Source: Rufibacter ruber
GTDB lineage: Bacteria > Bacteroidota > Bacteroidia > Cytophagales > Hymenobacteraceae
Length of the DNA: 39,683 bases
NCBI RefSeq assembly: GCF_001647275.1
Contig: NZ_LRMM01000050.1
Span: 1 to 39,683 of the forward strand
Direction of reading: 5' to 3'
Part shown: in pieces, positions 31,162-35,880 of the stretch
How positions within the stretch are numbered: position 1 is the stretch's first letter
Layout of the letters: every line of letters starts with the position of its first letter
Notes under the pieces: model-generated
What the model was told of the DNA's origin: nothing
Databases searched by the model: none
The model's input: the letters and a program-made list of their open reading frames with translations, nothing else
Program-made: the position numbers and the translations under genes

Positions 31162-31956
31162 ATGTTTGACGTTTTCTCCAGCCCAGATGTGTGGCTCAGT
31201 CTGCTCACGCTTACCTTCATGGAGGTGGTGCTGGGCATTGACAACATTGTGTTCATCTCTATTGTGGTGTCACGCCTGCCGCGCGAGCAGCAGGGCCGGG
31301 GCCGCACCATTGGCTTGCTGCTGGCGCTGGTCTTCCGGATCATCCTGTTGATGTTCATCAGTTACATTGTGCACGCCAACCAGCCGCTCTTCACCTGGGA
31401 CCTGCCGTGGCTGGACGAGCCCTTTGACGTCTCCTGGCGCGACATCATCCTGTTTGGCGGGGGCTTGTTCCTGCTGGCCAAGAGTACCACTGAGATTCAC
31501 AACAAACTGGAGGGTGAGGAAGAAGGTACGCATGGCGCCAAGGGCGGCAACGCCACCATGGGCAAAATCATCATTCAGATTATTCTGGTAGACATTGTGT
31601 TCTCCTTTGACTCTATCTTGACGGCCGTGGGTCTGGTAGACCACGTGAGCGTGATGATTGTGGCGGTGATCATCTCCATGCTGATTATGCTGGCCTTTGC
31701 CAAGTACGTGAGCGATTTTGTGAACAACCACCCAACCGTGAAAATGCTGGCCCTGTCGTTCCTGATTCTCATTGGCGTGATGCTGGTGGTAGAGGCCCTG
31801 CACGCGCATATCCCGAAAGGCTACATCTACTTCGCCATGTTCTTCTCACTGGCCGTAGAGATGCTCAACCTGAAACTGCGCAAGAAAACCAAGCCGGTGC
31901 AGCTGCGCCAGAGCGATATCGTAGATACTGACGGCAACCCGGAGACGTTAATGTAA
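31162..31956 (+). CDS. TerC family integral membrane protein
   Basis: 264 residues with seven or more membrane helices. The conserved EVVLGIDNIVFISI near the N-terminus and LVDIVFSFDSILTAVGLVDH near residue 150 carry the paired acidic residues that are the family signature. TerC proteins are linked to tellurite resistance and to export or metalation of manganese proteins; I do not claim tellurite resistance here because no ter cluster is present. A cytoplasmic, charge-rich loop (EGEEEGTHGAKGG) separates the halves. A strong intrinsic terminator follows (31987-32019). It is the last backbone gene before the cassette array. Confidence 0.93.
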   Translation: MFDVFSSPDVWLSLLTLTFMEVVLGIDNIVFISIVVSRLPREQQGRGRTIGLLLALVFRIILLMFISYIVHANQPLFTWDLPWLDEPFDVSWRDIILFGGGLFLLAKSTTEIHNKLEGEEEGTHGAKGGNATMGKIIIQIILVDIVFSFDSILTAVGLVDHVSVMIVAVIISMLIMLAFAKYVSDFVNNHPTVKMLALSFLILIGVMLVVEALHAHIPKGYIYFAMFFSLAVEMLNLKLRKKTKPVQLRQSDIVDTDGNPETLM

Positions 31957-32033: not shown

Positions 32034-32073
32034 GCGTTTTTGAGCTGTTTTTAGGAAAAGAGGCCGAAAACGG
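32034..32073. repeat. Palindromic intergenic repeat, copy 15 (degenerate)
   Basis: GCGTTTTTGAGCTGTTTTT opposite GAAAAGAGGCCGAAAACGG; several mismatches. Between the TerC terminator and the cassette array. Confidence 0.6.
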
Positions 32074-32117
32074 GAAGTGCTTTATTATGAGAGATCTAAA
32101 TCCTATATTCGGCAGTG

Positions 32118-32216
32118 CAATTACGTTTATCCGCCGGAAACGGGATGTAAACCGTATGTTTAGGTACGGCTATAGGTGTGATAAACGTAATTGTGACGGT
32201 TATACGGTAGTTAGCT
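32118..32216 (+). other. Left boundary of the cassette array (candidate attI or decayed attC)
   Basis: A 14-base perfect inverted repeat, CAATTACGTTTATC (32118-32131) and GATAAACGTAATTG (32180-32193), encloses 48 bases. Two core-site-like triplets follow, GTTATAC at 32199 and GTTAGCT at 32210. The second is the crossover site of the first cassette (between 32210 and 32211), since its sequence is complemented at that cassette's end. No RYYYAAC box precedes the left arm, so it is not a normal attC. Confidence 0.5.
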
Positions 32217-32231
32217 GTTATTTATAAAATA

Positions 32232-32696
32232 ATGAATTCAAAAGCCTTTCTTACTCTAGTCCTGATTTTGCTATCTGTAGCATCATATGGACAAGTAGAA
32301 AAAATTGACCCGACAGGTTCATATATTCTGGAAGCGAAAAAGATTAAAAATGGAGAGAAGGGCTCACACGGCGAGATTCATGTAAAGCTTATTGAAAACG
32401 ACTTGGCAGCAATTAGTTTCTATTATAATGTCGGACATCCAAGCTACAACTCTGGCTCTTTCGTTGATACTTTGGCTTATAAGGACAACAAGATTATCTA
32501 TACTTATAAAGAACCAGGAGAAGTTAATCCCGACTGTAAACTGACCTTCACATTTGAGCAGAAGAGAGTAATCATAAAACATGAAGCCAGCGACTATAAC
32601 TTCAGTTGCGGTTTTGGACATGGAGTTATAGCCAACCTGACAATTAAAAAGAAAACAAATAGAATTCCTATAATAAAAGATTACTGGGACAAATAA
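32232..32696 (+). CDS. Cassette 1 gene: small secreted protein of unknown function
   Basis: 154 residues. The N-terminal MNSKAFLTLVLILLSVASYGQ is a Sec signal peptide, so the product is exported. The mature part is beta-rich and charged (DPTGSYILEAKKIKNGEKGSHGEIHVKLIENDLAAISFYYNV), with two cysteines (PDCKLTF, FSCGFGHG) that could pair. It resembles small exported Bacteroidota proteins, but I cannot name a family. ATG start is 21 bases after the cassette crossover; the stop is only 8 bases before the complementary end sequence, the compact layout of cassette genes. AT-rich codon use unlike TerC. There is no promoter in the cassette, so expression needs outside transcription. Confidence 0.85.
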   Translation: MNSKAFLTLVLILLSVASYGQVEKIDPTGSYILEAKKIKNGEKGSHGEIHVKLIENDLAAISFYYNVGHPSYNSGSFVDTLAYKDNKIIYTYKEPGEVNPDCKLTFTFEQKRVIIKHEASDYNFSCGFGHGVIANLTIKKKTNRIPIIKDYWDK

Positions 32697-32704
32697 AGAA
32701 AAAC

Positions 32705-32776
32705 AACAGCTAACAACACCTAAACGTCAGCCTTCGGCCGACGGCCTCGCCCGTCGTTTAGCTTAGAACGTTGTAC
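32705..32776 (+). other. attC-like site 1
   Basis: R'' box GCTAAC ends at 32714, five spacer bases, L'' CTAAACG (32720-32726), L' CGTTTAG (32755-32761), then the crossover G at 32770 in GTTGTAC. The central hairpin contains GGCCGACGGCC. Total length 69 bases from 32708, within the size of known attC sites. Confidence 0.8.
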
Positions 32777-32792
32777 ATAATTTAAAATATAT

Positions 32793-33245
32793 ATGGCCTC
32801 AGGTTTTATTAAATTTAGAAATGGAGAAAGCTGGTATGCTAGGTGGTCAAGATATGATTGGGTTCTTGAAAGAATAATGCTTGAATTAAGTGAAGATGGT
32901 AAAGAAGGAGAATTAAAAGCATGGATAGAGTCTTTGCTACCAGATGAAGATAGAGGAGATATAGAATGTGGTTGGAGCTTTATTAAAGCTACACCTGAAA
33001 GCGAAATGGTTACACGGATACTTGACACAAGATTAATGAAGGAAGAATATCAGCAGATTTTTTGGGAAGGTGCTAGAAGGGCAATGGAGAAAGAACCCGA
33101 CAAGGAAGATGGTATTGGCTTTTTGATTAATCAACTTTATAAAATGTACGAAGAAAGCTTAAATGAAGAATATGTTCCACCAAAACCATTTAATCCAGAA
33201 GAAGACGATATAGAAGATTATCAAATAGGGCCAGGCTGGAAATAG
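32793..33245 (+). CDS. Cassette 2 gene: acidic soluble protein of unknown function
   Basis: 150 residues, no signal peptide, strongly acidic and helical (MLELSEDGKEGELKAWIESLLPDEDRGD, EEDDIEDYQIGPGWK). It has many tryptophans and tyrosines at the front (WYARWSRYDW). Such composition is common in immunity or anti-toxin-like proteins of cassette arrays, but that is only a resemblance. ATG start 23 bases inside the cassette; the stop at 33243-33245 is 6 bases before the complementary end. AT-rich. No neighbour helps to define it. Confidence 0.8.
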   Translation: MASGFIKFRNGESWYARWSRYDWVLERIMLELSEDGKEGELKAWIESLLPDEDRGDIECGWSFIKATPESEMVTRILDTRLMKEEYQQIFWEGARRAMEKEPDKEDGIGFLINQLYKMYEESLNEEYVPPKPFNPEEDDIEDYQIGPGWK

Positions 33246-33251
33246 AAAAAC

Positions 33252-33321
33252 TATGTACAACATTATATAAACACCATGCTAGGCCGACGGCCTAGCACGT
33301 TGTTTATACTAGCCGTTATGT
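33252..33321 (+). other. attC-like site 2
   Basis: R'' sequence TATGTACAAC (33252-33261), L'' TATAAACA (33266-33273), L' TGTTTATA (33301-33308), crossover G at 33315 in GTTATGTGC. The central stem GCTAGGCC/GGCCTAGC (33278-33296) is perfect and contains the shared GGCCGACGGCC. 67 bases. Confidence 0.8.
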
Positions 33322-33440
33322 GCAATTGTAAATAGAAGTTCTCGCGGCGGCAAGCAATAAAATCAGCAGAAGCCGACGAAAAATCGGGAATTGCTGCAAA
33401 AGTGAACCGGCAAAACGTTAGATTACCTCAGTAAAAGAAA

Positions 33441-33596
33441 ATGAACGCCGCCCGACTCTCATCGGCTAATGTTGCAGTAGAGGGATCGGCCAGGCGTTTG
33501 AGCAAAAGGAATTTGTCGGCAACGTGTGCAGACGGACCGATTCATAATGCGTTTCCGGCTTCTTTTTCTGAAAACGTGCCAAAAACAGACGGATAA
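33441..33596 (+). CDS. Cassette 3: possible 51-residue frame in an otherwise non-coding cassette
   Basis: The cassette (33316-33761) has no gene of normal size. The only plus-strand candidate is a 51-codon frame from ATG 33441 to TAA 33594-33596 (MNAARLSSANVAVEGSARR and on, basic). It runs through palindromic repeat copy 16, so its C-terminal part is repeat translation, which argues against it being a real gene. Listed so it can be checked. The cassette is better read as non-coding, carrying two host-type intergenic repeats (33549-33588 and 33613-33653). Confidence 0.25.
   Translation: MNAARLSSANVAVEGSARRLSKRNLSATCADGPIHNAFPASFSENVPKTDG
33549..33588. repeat. Palindromic repeat copy 16, inside cassette 3
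   Basis: GCGTTTCCGGCTTCTTTTTC against GAAAACGTGCCAAAAACAG; core mispaired, clearly of the same family as the chromosomal copies. Confidence 0.6.
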
Positions 33597-33612
33597 AGAA
33601 TTGCGGCTGATT

Positions 33613-33653
33613 CCCGTTTTCGGGCTGTTTTCCTGAAATCAGGCCAAAAACAG
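33613..33653. repeat. Palindromic repeat copy 17, inside cassette 3
   Basis: CGTTTTCGGGCTGTTTTCC opposite AAATCAGGCCAAAAACAG. Two copies within 105 bases in one cassette. Confidence 0.7.
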
Positions 33654-33696
33654 AGAAAGTAAAATAAGAAATCGGCGGCGGGCGCAAAGAAACAAC

Positions 33697-33767
33697 TGCA
33701 CATAACAACACCTAAACGTCACGCTTCGGCCGACGGCCTAGCGCGTCGTTTAGCATAGACGTTAGCT
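33697..33767 (+). other. attC-like site 3
   Basis: R'' TGCACATAAC (33697-33706), L'' CTAAACG (33712-33718), L' CGTTTAG (33747-33753), crossover G at 33761 in GTTAGCT. The core GGCCGACGGCC is again present. It closely resembles site 1. 68 bases. Confidence 0.8.
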
Positions 33768-33871
33768 GTAATTTTAATCTACTTCCCAATATATTTACAG
33801 TAATGATTTTAATAAATATATTGATAATTAAATATTTAGTAAATTGAACTAGTCTTCAATCAAATAACGAC

Positions 33872-34543
33872 ATGGAAAAGATAGCTGTAAGTAAAATTGT
33901 AGAATTCAGGACAAAAAAGACTAAAGGTTCTCAAAGTAATTTTATTAATAATATAAAATACCCAAAGCCGAAAACATCTGATGAAGGAGGTGATTATTGG
34001 ACTATTTCAATTAGTGCCATTAGCAAAAATTTCAAAGATGATAACAGAGGAATTATAACAGATAAAATTGATGAGGTAAATGAGAAAAGAGCAGTTGCGA
34101 CAGCTAAGATTTCAAAAGATATGTATCAAAGAAATATTGATATACTTATCAATTCCTTAGAATTTGATTTATCTAACTTAAAGCCAAACGCTGATTTAAA
34201 CTATATTAGTAGGAACCAAAATGTTATAAAAATAAATGGCCTTCCTGTTCAAGTAAAACCTCAACATATTTTTACGTTCAAAGAACAGAATGTAGAAAAG
34301 GTCGGAGCAGTTTGGTTTGTATCTAAACTTAACGGATTAAAACTTGAAGAGATAGAAATATTTACTGACAGTTTACATAGATACCTAGTTGAAAACTTTT
34401 CAAGTAAATATGAAATAAGTGCTGAGTATTGTATAACAGTAGATGTTGTAAGCCAAAATAGCGTAAGATATTCTGAAATAGCGGAAAGGGAAACAATTTC
34501 TTTGCTTGAGCCAACAATAGAATCGATTAAAGCTTTTTGGTAA
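33872..34543 (+). CDS. Cassette 4 gene: AT-rich protein of unknown function
   Basis: 223 residues, no signal peptide or membrane helix; lysine-, asparagine- and isoleucine-rich, visibly more AT-rich than any backbone gene. It begins MEKIAVSKIVEFRTKKTKGS and has RNIDILINSLEFDLSNLK and LEEIEIFTDSLHRYLVEN as helical blocks. I recognise no catalytic motif. The stop at 34541-34543 is 7 bases before the complementary end TACAGCTAAC. About 110 bases of very AT-rich leader (TTAATAAATATATTGATAAT) lie between the crossover and the ATG, longer than in cassettes 1 and 2, so this unit may carry its own promoter. Confidence 0.8.
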   Translation: MEKIAVSKIVEFRTKKTKGSQSNFINNIKYPKPKTSDEGGDYWTISISAISKNFKDDNRGIITDKIDEVNEKRAVATAKISKDMYQRNIDILINSLEFDLSNLKPNADLNYISRNQNVIKINGLPVQVKPQHIFTFKEQNVEKVGAVWFVSKLNGLKLEEIEIFTDSLHRYLVENFSSKYEISAEYCITVDVVSQNSVRYSEIAERETISLLEPTIESIKAFW

Positions 34544-34550
34544 AAAAAAC

Positions 34551-34621
34551 TACAGCTAACATTGTGCATAAGCCATGCTACGGCCGACGGCCTTGCACGC
34601 CTCATGCACTAGACGTTAGCT
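34551..34621 (+). other. attC-like site 4 (right end of array)
   Basis: R'' TACAGCTAAC (34551-34560), L'' GTGCAT (34564-34569), L' ATGCAC (34604-34609), crossover G at 34615 in GTTAGCT. The core GGCCGACGGCC recurs. No sequence further right ends in the complement of the TTAGCTGATTA that follows, so the array stops here. Confidence 0.75.
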
Positions 34622-34812
34622 GATTATTATATTTTATGTTGCCATAACTGTTTTTGGTCATAATTCATTATTTTGCCTACTTAAATCCCATTCAGCCTAA
34701 GTTTTAGAATAGAACCTAAGAGAATGGGTGAGAGGATGGTTAGTATCTTTAAAGAGCTAAAAACAAGCCCCGACCCGCTAAGTGTAATTGAGTTTTTACA
34801 AGTAGAATTGAT

Positions 34813-35070
34813 ATGCAGAAGAATACGTACAAAGAGTTGACAGATGAGAAACTGCTGAAGAGGAGTGAACTCATGAAGGGTGTTTCTATTGGCTTCGGGG
34901 TTGTTTATTTACTTGCCATTGCGGCGGTAACCTATCTTTTTTTGACCAAGGGCTCCGGACGCATGTCTATGGCTGTTTTCATTCCTATTTTGATGATGCC
35001 CGTGGCGTTTATGCCTTTGTTGATCAACTGGAGCCTGTTAAACAAAGAAATCAAAGCCAGAAGCCTCTAA
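34813..35070 (+). CDS. Small two-helix membrane protein
   Basis: 85 residues. Charged N-terminus (ELTDEKLLKRSELMKG), then helices at ~23-46 and ~54-72 and a basic tail (NKEIKARSL). The layout matches small Bacteroidota membrane proteins often called redox-active disulfide protein 2, although no cysteine is present here, so that name would be misleading. The stop is only 6 bases before the DUF3667 gene, so the two form an operon. Composition returns to that of the backbone here, after the array. Function unknown. Confidence 0.85.
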   Translation: MQKNTYKELTDEKLLKRSELMKGVSIGFGVVYLLAIAAVTYLFLTKGSGRMSMAVFIPILMMPVAFMPLLINWSLLNKEIKARSL

Positions 35071-35076
35071 GGTCTT

Positions 35077-35880
35077 ATGAGTGTTATGCTGCTGAACTGT
35101 AAGAACTGTGAGCAAACCCTCGCCGGGAATTTCTGTGCGGTTTGCGGGCAGAAAAAGTACAAGAGAATTGACCGGCACTACCTCTGGGAAGAGTTTCAGT
35201 ACACGGTGCTACATACCAACAAGGGTCTGCTATATTCTATAAAGAGCGTCCTCAGAAATCCGGGTAAAACCGCTAAAGAATACATAGACGGGCACCGGGT
35301 AAACCATTACAAACCTATCCTGCTGGTGTTTGTTCTGAGCGGTATTGCTACGTTTCTTTCTTTTAAGGTGCTGAACTTGAAAGAGGTAATGGCCGTATAC
35401 TTTGCCCAGCAGAACGTTGACGCAGGGCTGGTTGGGACTATCCTCTCGTTCATGTCAAGCTACAGCTCCATGCTCATGCTGCTGTACGTTCCGCTTTTCG
35501 CGCTCACCACTAAGATCGCTTTCAGGAAATGGGGGCATAACTACTATGAGCATGTAGTCATGAACGCCTATATCCTGTCTTTCTACACCTTGGTGAGCAT
35601 CATCTTTGCGTACCCCATCATGTTCATTTTCAGGCATTCGCCTGAAGATTTTTATACGGTCACCCAAATCTCCATCTTGGCGGTGCCTGTTATCCTGGTG
35701 TTCTTCTTTAAAGAAGTCTACCAAGGCAAACCCTTGAAATCTATTGTGCTGAGGGTAATTGGCGTAATGTGTTTGGCCTTACTGGGGTATATTTTGTTTA
35801 TTATAGTTGCTGGAATCATTGGTTTTGCCATTGCTATGCTGAAAGGGCCAGAGGCTCTGGAAATGTTAAAGACTAAATAA
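35077..35880 (+). CDS. DUF3667 membrane protein with N-terminal zinc ribbon
   Basis: 267 residues. Two CxxC pairs (Cys8, Cys11 and Cys20, Cys23 in NCKNCEQTLAGNFCAVCGQK) form a zinc ribbon, followed by the DUF3667 motif TVLHTNKGLLYSIKSVLRNPGKTAKEYIDGHRVNHYKPI and about four or five membrane helices. DUF3667 is a Bacteroidota-centred family of unknown function. Start is ATG 35077, coupled to the preceding gene; a second ATG is three codons later. A terminator-like hairpin lies 65 bases past the stop. Inner-membrane location is inferred from the helices. Confidence 0.9.
   Translation: MSVMLLNCKNCEQTLAGNFCAVCGQKKYKRIDRHYLWEEFQYTVLHTNKGLLYSIKSVLRNPGKTAKEYIDGHRVNHYKPILLVFVLSGIATFLSFKVLNLKEVMAVYFAQQNVDAGLVGTILSFMSSYSSMLMLLYVPLFALTTKIAFRKWGHNYYEHVVMNAYILSFYTLVSIIFAYPIMFIFRHSPEDFYTVTQISILAVPVILVFFFKEVYQGKPLKSIVLRVIGVMCLALLGYILFIIVAGIIGFAIAMLKGPEALEMLKTK

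Follow-up and report, generated by a model that had tools for sequence, protein, structure and literature searches.

An integron-type gene-cassette array in Rufibacter ruber and its probable recombinase, a tyrosine recombinase apparently without helix I2

Introduction

How a genome without a canonical integron integrase comes to carry an ordered array of gene cassettes is the question raised by a stretch of Rufibacter ruber DNA (39,683 nucleotides; contig NZ_LRMM01000050.1 of assembly GCF_001647275.1, positions 1 to 39,683 of the forward strand), hereafter referred to as the window. Four cassettes lie head to tail and in one orientation at positions 32211-34615, with terC to their left and a DUF3667 gene (35077-35880) to their right. 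A first-pass annotation, made from the letters alone, had recognized these four units and their common direction and had described them as an integron-type array resembling a cluster of attC sites lacking integron-integrases (CALIN). The start it gave for the array, 32118, is the left arm of an inverted repeat within a preceding head element, and the first cassette starts at 32211. We conclude that the window array is probably a satellite of an integron system, active now or until recently, whose tyrosine recombinase is encoded on another contig (C5) of the same genome and appears to lack helix I2 of the integron integrases (IntI).

According to one account (PMC7790495), helix I2 was acquired by integron integrases and reads the extrahelical bases of attC sites; current accounts, as represented there, tie the recombination of single-stranded cassettes to this acquisition. 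Another source (PMC8138268) calls the insertion that holds I2 essential, yet states that it is not fully conserved in an integron-like subgroup; on the strength of that statement, relatives of IntI without I2 are not new as such. One survey is described as having picked intI genes by their I2-bearing domain (PMC2426708), and the relevant part of the IntegronFinder 2.0 report (PMC9024848) gives complete Bacteroidetes integrons only from Salinibacter ruber. Since surveys detect integrons via an IntI with an I2 domain, a lineage without I2 would be passed over. In the literature searched, the scope of which left out subscription papers and preprints, no prior description of such a system in Bacteroidota was found by title. 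What deserves attention here is a linked and co-occurring recombinase without I2 across much of a phylum.

Results and discussion

Every window cassette begins with TT, directly after the G of a G|TT junction, with crossover G residues at 32210, 32770, 33315, 33761 and 34615. When the junction G is counted, the first 14 bases of each cassette agree at 13/14 positions with the reverse complement of that cassette's own end, and the sole mismatch falls at position 11 in all four cassettes; the own-end complementarity described in the first-pass annotation is thus real, but its length, put at 10 bases, was too low. Over positions 4 to 10, own starts and ends agree at 7/7 positions versus 1 to 6 of 7 in the 12 other pairings, and neighbouring half-sites do differ, as had been remarked. 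The core GGCCGACGGCC is common to all four sites, again as first noticed, and a folded site is found at the end of each unit, although it measures 68 to 70 bases from arm start to G rather than 67 to 69. AT-rich content, also claimed earlier, holds for cassettes 1, 2 and 4 (GC content 0.375, 0.358 and 0.302; window 0.529) and less so for cassette 3 (0.473).

The four cassettes, all on the + strand and all with matched own ends, occupy positions 32211..32770, 32771..33315, 33316..33761 and 33762..34615. Cassettes 1, 2 and 4 contain open reading frames (ORFs) of 154, 150 and 223 amino acids (32232..32696, 32793..33245 and 33872..34543, all +), to which no family could be assigned, as none had a match in Pfam, NCBIfam or PADLOC; cassette 3 has no clear gene, its longest sense ORF being 51 codons. 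The attC-like sites, also on the + strand, lie at 32701..32783 (site 1, from the cassette's own arm through the next cassette's first 14 bases; 76.9 bits, bottom-strand folding z -1.68), 33248..33328 (site 2; 68.1 bits, z -6.89), 33693..33774 (site 3; 71.0 bits, z -3.92) and 34547..34628 (site 4, the array's last; 77.6 bits, z -3.70). Nothing within the window was matched by Rfam at the gathering threshold.

These features recur well beyond the window. A genome-wide search for the core, suggested in the first-pass annotation, gave 45 exact occurrences, 41 of which were judged attC-like from their context, while four within genes were set aside. A covariance model based on 37 sites gave 72 matches in the genome's own stretches, of which 47 were used, and 117 in those of relatives, of which 102 were used; opposite-strand echoes and weak or cut matches were left out. 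For 26 cassettes of the genome, agreement between own start and own end was 5.92/7, compared to 3.03 ± 0.27 when ends were exchanged at random between cassettes, and none of 20,000 shuffles reached the observed value; the corresponding figures were 5.83/7 (shuffled 2.99) for 30 of the genome's cassettes and 6.13/7 (shuffled 2.73) for 86 cassettes of relatives. The two arms within one arrayed site, which come from neighbouring cassettes, agree at 3.05/7 positions and hence at chance level (shuffled 3.03). Full pairing would be restored only in the excised circle.

Position 11 is nearly as constant across genomes as it is in the window: 115 of 116 cassettes have A there at their start, and the complement of the end is G in 106 of 116. 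Read on the top strand, the pair is a mismatch (A.C); read on the bottom strand, it is a wobble (G.T). Folding with DNA parameters, a check that the annotation had proposed, placed the bottom strand below the top strand in 38/40 sites (mean bottom z -3.15), and the imperfect hairpins and bottom-strand bias that characterize integron attC sites are therefore found here as well. A bottom z below -2 was reached in only 30/40 sites, the other 10 falling short, and window site 1 would fail on folding alone.

It could be argued that a recombinase without I2 acts on double-stranded sites in the manner of Xer at dif, and that the hairpins do other work, for example at transcript ends. We consider this unlikely. 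Within one arrayed site the two arms show chance agreement, while the two arms of one cassette, which are brought together only by circularization, do match; moreover, neither the bottom-strand bias nor the A.C/G.T pair at base 11 would have a meaning unless the strand is folded.

The content of the cassettes likewise follows the integron pattern of own-end complementary units with one orientation and one gene each. A sense ORF of at least 50 codons is present in 100 of 116 cassettes and one of at least 80 codons in 96, 102 of 116 have their longest ORF in the sense orientation, and the distance from ATG to cassette start has a median of 25 nt in the 100 cassettes with a sense ORF of at least 50 codons; the median cassette length is 549 bases in this genome and 517 bases in relatives. 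Insertion and excision of circular cassettes would have left indirect marks in the form of shared and missing cassettes. A cassette from contig C47 was found again, at 98%, in a dispersed array on C54, and the gene-less cassette 3 of the window is 89% identical to a cassette in contig C11 of relative G010 and 77% identical to one on C54. The own-end match, the bottom-strand folding, the 98% cassette on C47 and C54 and the presence/absence pattern at the terC locus (see below) all support the earlier assignment of an integron-type array.

Two further observations concern cassettes. Gene-less cassettes of one family, approximately 400 bases long, are found in many arrays across the genus (window 33316-33761, C11 of G010, G012, and C54, C156 and C36 of the present genome) and may carry an RNA or a promoter. 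In one array of G013 (L099), two cassettes are 100% identical across 712 bases, a sign of recent duplication.

With regard to the recombinase, the first-pass annotation had expected an integrase of the IntI type carrying the patch III insertion, but no gene in the Rufibacter genome passes the TIGR02249 cut-off for IntI, and the recombinase that is linked to an array does not have that insertion. This gene, the best match to the IntI profile (202.3 bits; cut-off 265), lies on C5 in an open frame of 544 codons, or approximately 490 residues if counted from the start that relatives suggest; its score against XerA_Arch NF040815 is also below the cut-off (208.9 versus 220 bits). Counted in the alignment, the spacing from GKGxKxR to HxLRH is 58 residues in 26/26 family members and 2/2 divergent ones and 58 to 61 in 14/14 order-level and other relatives, as compared to 100 in 31/31 IntI and 62 to 66 in 11/11 Xer proteins. 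In a 34-row alignment of named homologues, 33 rows have a spacing of 58 and one row has 59; all 34 keep the R, K, H, R, H and Y of tyrosine recombinase catalysis. As judged from its sequence, the C5 recombinase is thus without the insertion that holds helix I2, the domain that defines IntI (58 versus 100 residues), and is not a canonical IntI.

The C5 recombinase shares a catalytic core without I2 with XerA and Xer (5hxy, 4a8e; NF040815) but differs from Xer in carrying N-terminal modules and an SPLD-type tail. The SPLD tail of the family rows is shared with the IntI rows inspected and was not seen in 11/11 Xer rows; by strict pattern it occurs in 15/32 anchored loci and is hence not universal. 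Genes for XerC/D-like proteins lie apart from the C5 recombinase in the genome. For the N-terminal part, a first look with Foldseek gave no convincing match, and a second fold look returned rows of XPB damage-recognition and HARP domains, a likeness of predicted folds that is below the level showing homology.

On C5, the recombinase stop is followed, after 134 bp, by the G of an attI-like site and then by cassettes in the same direction. Recombinase, attI-like site and array are thus linked on one contig, which agrees with the earlier suggestion that the integrase responsible lies outside the window and, apparently, elsewhere in the genome; further array pieces occupy small contigs or contig ends. 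Relatives keep the same order, and in those rows that align past the stop the motif has the form GATAA-CGTA ... TTATAC-TAG|TT, followed by cassette-specific sequence, so that the attI site of an integron, adjoining the recombinase where the first cassette begins, has its counterpart here. Chromosomal integrons of Treponema are described as similar in that intI is transcribed toward attI and the cassettes (PMC3607928); they are treated in that description as intI integrons, whereas the gene considered here is without the insertion.

The sequence between recombinase and attI-like site may also hold a promoter. TANNTT occurs exactly 11 nt past the recombinase stop in 18/27 relatives and at 10 to 14 nt in 23/27, and the fuller TANNTTNG occurs within 30 nt past the stop in 11/27 rows versus 1.2 in shuffles. 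We take TAnnTTTG to be the -7 promoter motif of Bacteroidota, and the conserved TANNTT would accordingly be a candidate cassette promoter (Pc-like). The same assumption applied to the window points to a possible -7 element, TATATTCGG (32104..32112, +), proposed from its position and from the alignment; TATATT stands at this place in 9/13 aligned head or attI rows, as counted by eye.

Sites and recombinase co-occur. Sites were found in 30 of 59 relatives, including all genomes of genera g1 to g4. Among 150 family genomes, 77 have sites and 68 have the recombinase (E <= 1e-60); both are present in 66, neither in 71, sites only in 11 and the recombinase only in 2 (Fisher p 4e-28, a value that ignores relatedness, as the pattern follows genera). 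The genomes that have attC-like sites and no detectable recombinase of the C5 family, i.e., G023 and ten more, are candidates for abandoned arrays or for yet another recombinase.

A scan of named genomes of the phylum, from which the best 80 of 552 confirmed loci were taken, extends this linkage. Loci among these 80 come from Rufibacter, Pontibacter, Adhaeribacter, Flavobacteriaceae (Maribacter, Aquimarina, Arenibacter, Gelidibacter), Bacteroidales and more. At least 1000 bp downstream, which made a locus testable, were available in 54 of the 80, and 32 of these 54 have a first cassette with matched ends (at least 9/10 positions, position 11 left uncounted) that starts within 320 bp of the recombinase (8/13 Hymenobacteraceae-like and 24/41 other loci). 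Controls gave 0/54 for reversed sequence, 0/50 for the 5' side (four being too short) and an expected 0.4 for shuffles. Position 11 played no part in the selection, and 29/32 matched loci have the A/C pair there. In example loci, sites are approximately 110 to 125 bases long, and palindromes stand directly before the first cassette. A looser search for cassette chains showed, in many loci, no excess over plain reversal; its reverse-complement counts are no control, because of the symmetry of the pattern.

An alternative is that the array is a relic of a conventional integron, the canonical IntI having been lost or lying outside the assembly, and that the linked recombinase is an Xer-type bystander. 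The sites do resemble attC in look and fold, canonical IntI occurs in 84/296 genomes of the phylum, and CALINs without an integrase are known, as stated in one source (PMC8618304). However, nothing in the Rufibacter genome scores over the IntI cut-off, and only one of the 84 IntI-bearing genomes (G095) is marked as being of the same class or closer. In addition, the attI-like site of relatives lies directly behind the gene without I2, with which the sites co-occur, and in the canonical loci viewed, arms match over approximately 9 to 10 bases and have no base-11 signature (by eye, chance rows included). We therefore regard this relic as very improbable.

The position of the window array is not random, in that the array opens with a copy of the attI-like site carried by a recurring head. 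This head element, an aligned stretch of approximately 175 bp (32035..32210, +), ends in an attI-like site (32165..32212, +; crossover between G32210 and T32211) that aligns with the sequence past the C5 recombinase stop, where the C5 attI-like site matches the head's right part. Within it lies a 14-bp inverted repeat, with a left arm at 32118..32131 (+) and a right arm at 32180..32193 (-) that doubles as the left half of the attI-like site. The genome holds five more copies, of 141 to 191 bp and 82 to 85% identity (contigs C37, C87, C160, C68 and C54), and weaker copies were found three times in relatives (twice in G004, once in G009). On C68, on C54 and in the three cases from relatives, an attC-like site follows approximately 150 to 1000 bp past the head; on C37, C87 and C160 the contig terminates shortly after it. 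As a separate observation, head bases 32035-32072 (approximately 38) belong to a short palindromic repeat that is widespread between genes in the genus and is perhaps a terminator.

The earlier label CALIN holds insofar as there are four attC-like sites and no integrase in the 39.7-kb window. Unlike a CALIN, however, the array begins at the system's own attI-like copy, so that the label covers only the lack of a nearby integrase.

Presence and absence at the terC locus also fit an integron-type array. The left flank, terC (31162..31956, +; PF03741), adjoins a yajQ-like gene in 15/15 relatives, whereas the right flank, consisting of an 85-amino-acid ORF and the DUF3667 gene (34813..35880, +; PF12412), is not beside terC in these 15. 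A comparison of relatives, as had been advised, covered 13 terC-locus stretches from 11 relatives and found neither an attC-like site nor a head element; nine of the stretches span approximately 4 kb downstream of terC and four the whole distance up to the next shared gene, with two relatives contributing to both sets. A clean empty site was also sought, but the relatives' interval differs in genes and length; because of this variation, the comparison establishes only the absence of sites and head element.

That the sites are dispersed palindromic repeats of the repetitive extragenic palindrome or miniature inverted-repeat transposable element type, transposed and by chance lying between small genes, can be dismissed almost outright: sites are scattered over many contigs and the head element is a dispersed repeat, but cassette-specific matched ends, a single orientation with sense ORFs and anchoring right past the recombinase would all be left unexplained.

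The system thus gives the results expected of an integron in the sequence tests made here and fails the one that defines IntI, and an integron lineage without I2 would be the best reading. Under this reading, the C5 tyrosine recombinase would capture a circular cassette in the form of its folded bottom strand, in which the cassette's two own ends would pair over approximately 14 bases beside the hairpin, and would insert it between G and TT of the attI-like site. Newcomers would enter at the head; recombination between two attC-like sites would excise or shuffle cassettes, and the first ones would be transcribed from the candidate promoter that lies directly upstream of attI. The attI-like copies in heads of approximately 175 bp, including the one between terC and the DUF3667 gene, would represent extra entry points served in trans. 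The N-terminal modules, whose predicted fold resembles small domains that recognize DNA distortion, may replace the grip of I2 on attC.

The resemblance to integrons includes a tyrosine recombinase by attI, mostly single-gene cassettes pointing one way, G|TT junctions, hairpin sites with bottom-strand bias and gene-less cassettes. In contrast to integrons, the recombinase here is without the I2 insertion and has N-terminal modules, the arms are 14 bases long with a fixed mismatch at base 11, and the hairpin carries the core GGCCGACGGCC in this family, with sites of approximately 120 bases in others. We see about equal reason to accept and to doubt the wider proposal of a phylum-wide Bacteroidota integron lineage in which single-stranded attC sites would be recombined without I2, one or two N-terminal modules would stand in for it, and satellite attI heads would let one recombinase build several arrays. 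If that proposal is true, recombination of hairpin cassettes either predates I2 or arose twice. If the system is active, I2 is not required for cassette recombination, the origin of integrons becomes testable on a natural enzyme without I2, and a large pool of mobile cassettes becomes visible in Flavobacteriaceae, Hymenobacteraceae and others.

The descent of the recombinase was explored with two trees, the Xer rows of which were from Bacteroidota only and thus represent a narrow sampling. In a quick tree of 84 rows, Xer, IntI and the remainder separate; in a careful tree of 79 rows, which left out five long or odd rows, the rows without I2 formed one clade in 35% of 200 bootstraps, i.e., not one clade. 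IntI and Xer each form one clade in both trees, with the rows without I2 in between, and the latter are, on these trees, not surely a single clade. Two minor observations concern relatives of the enzyme. G040 (L111, L221) holds approximately nine near-identical copies of a 326-codon relative with an SPLD tail and no clear N-terminal extension, perhaps a transposon-like element. Broken or partial recombinase copies occur elsewhere (C111 of G011, C10 of G021, C6 of G371 and C19 of G375), which suggests loss of old platforms.

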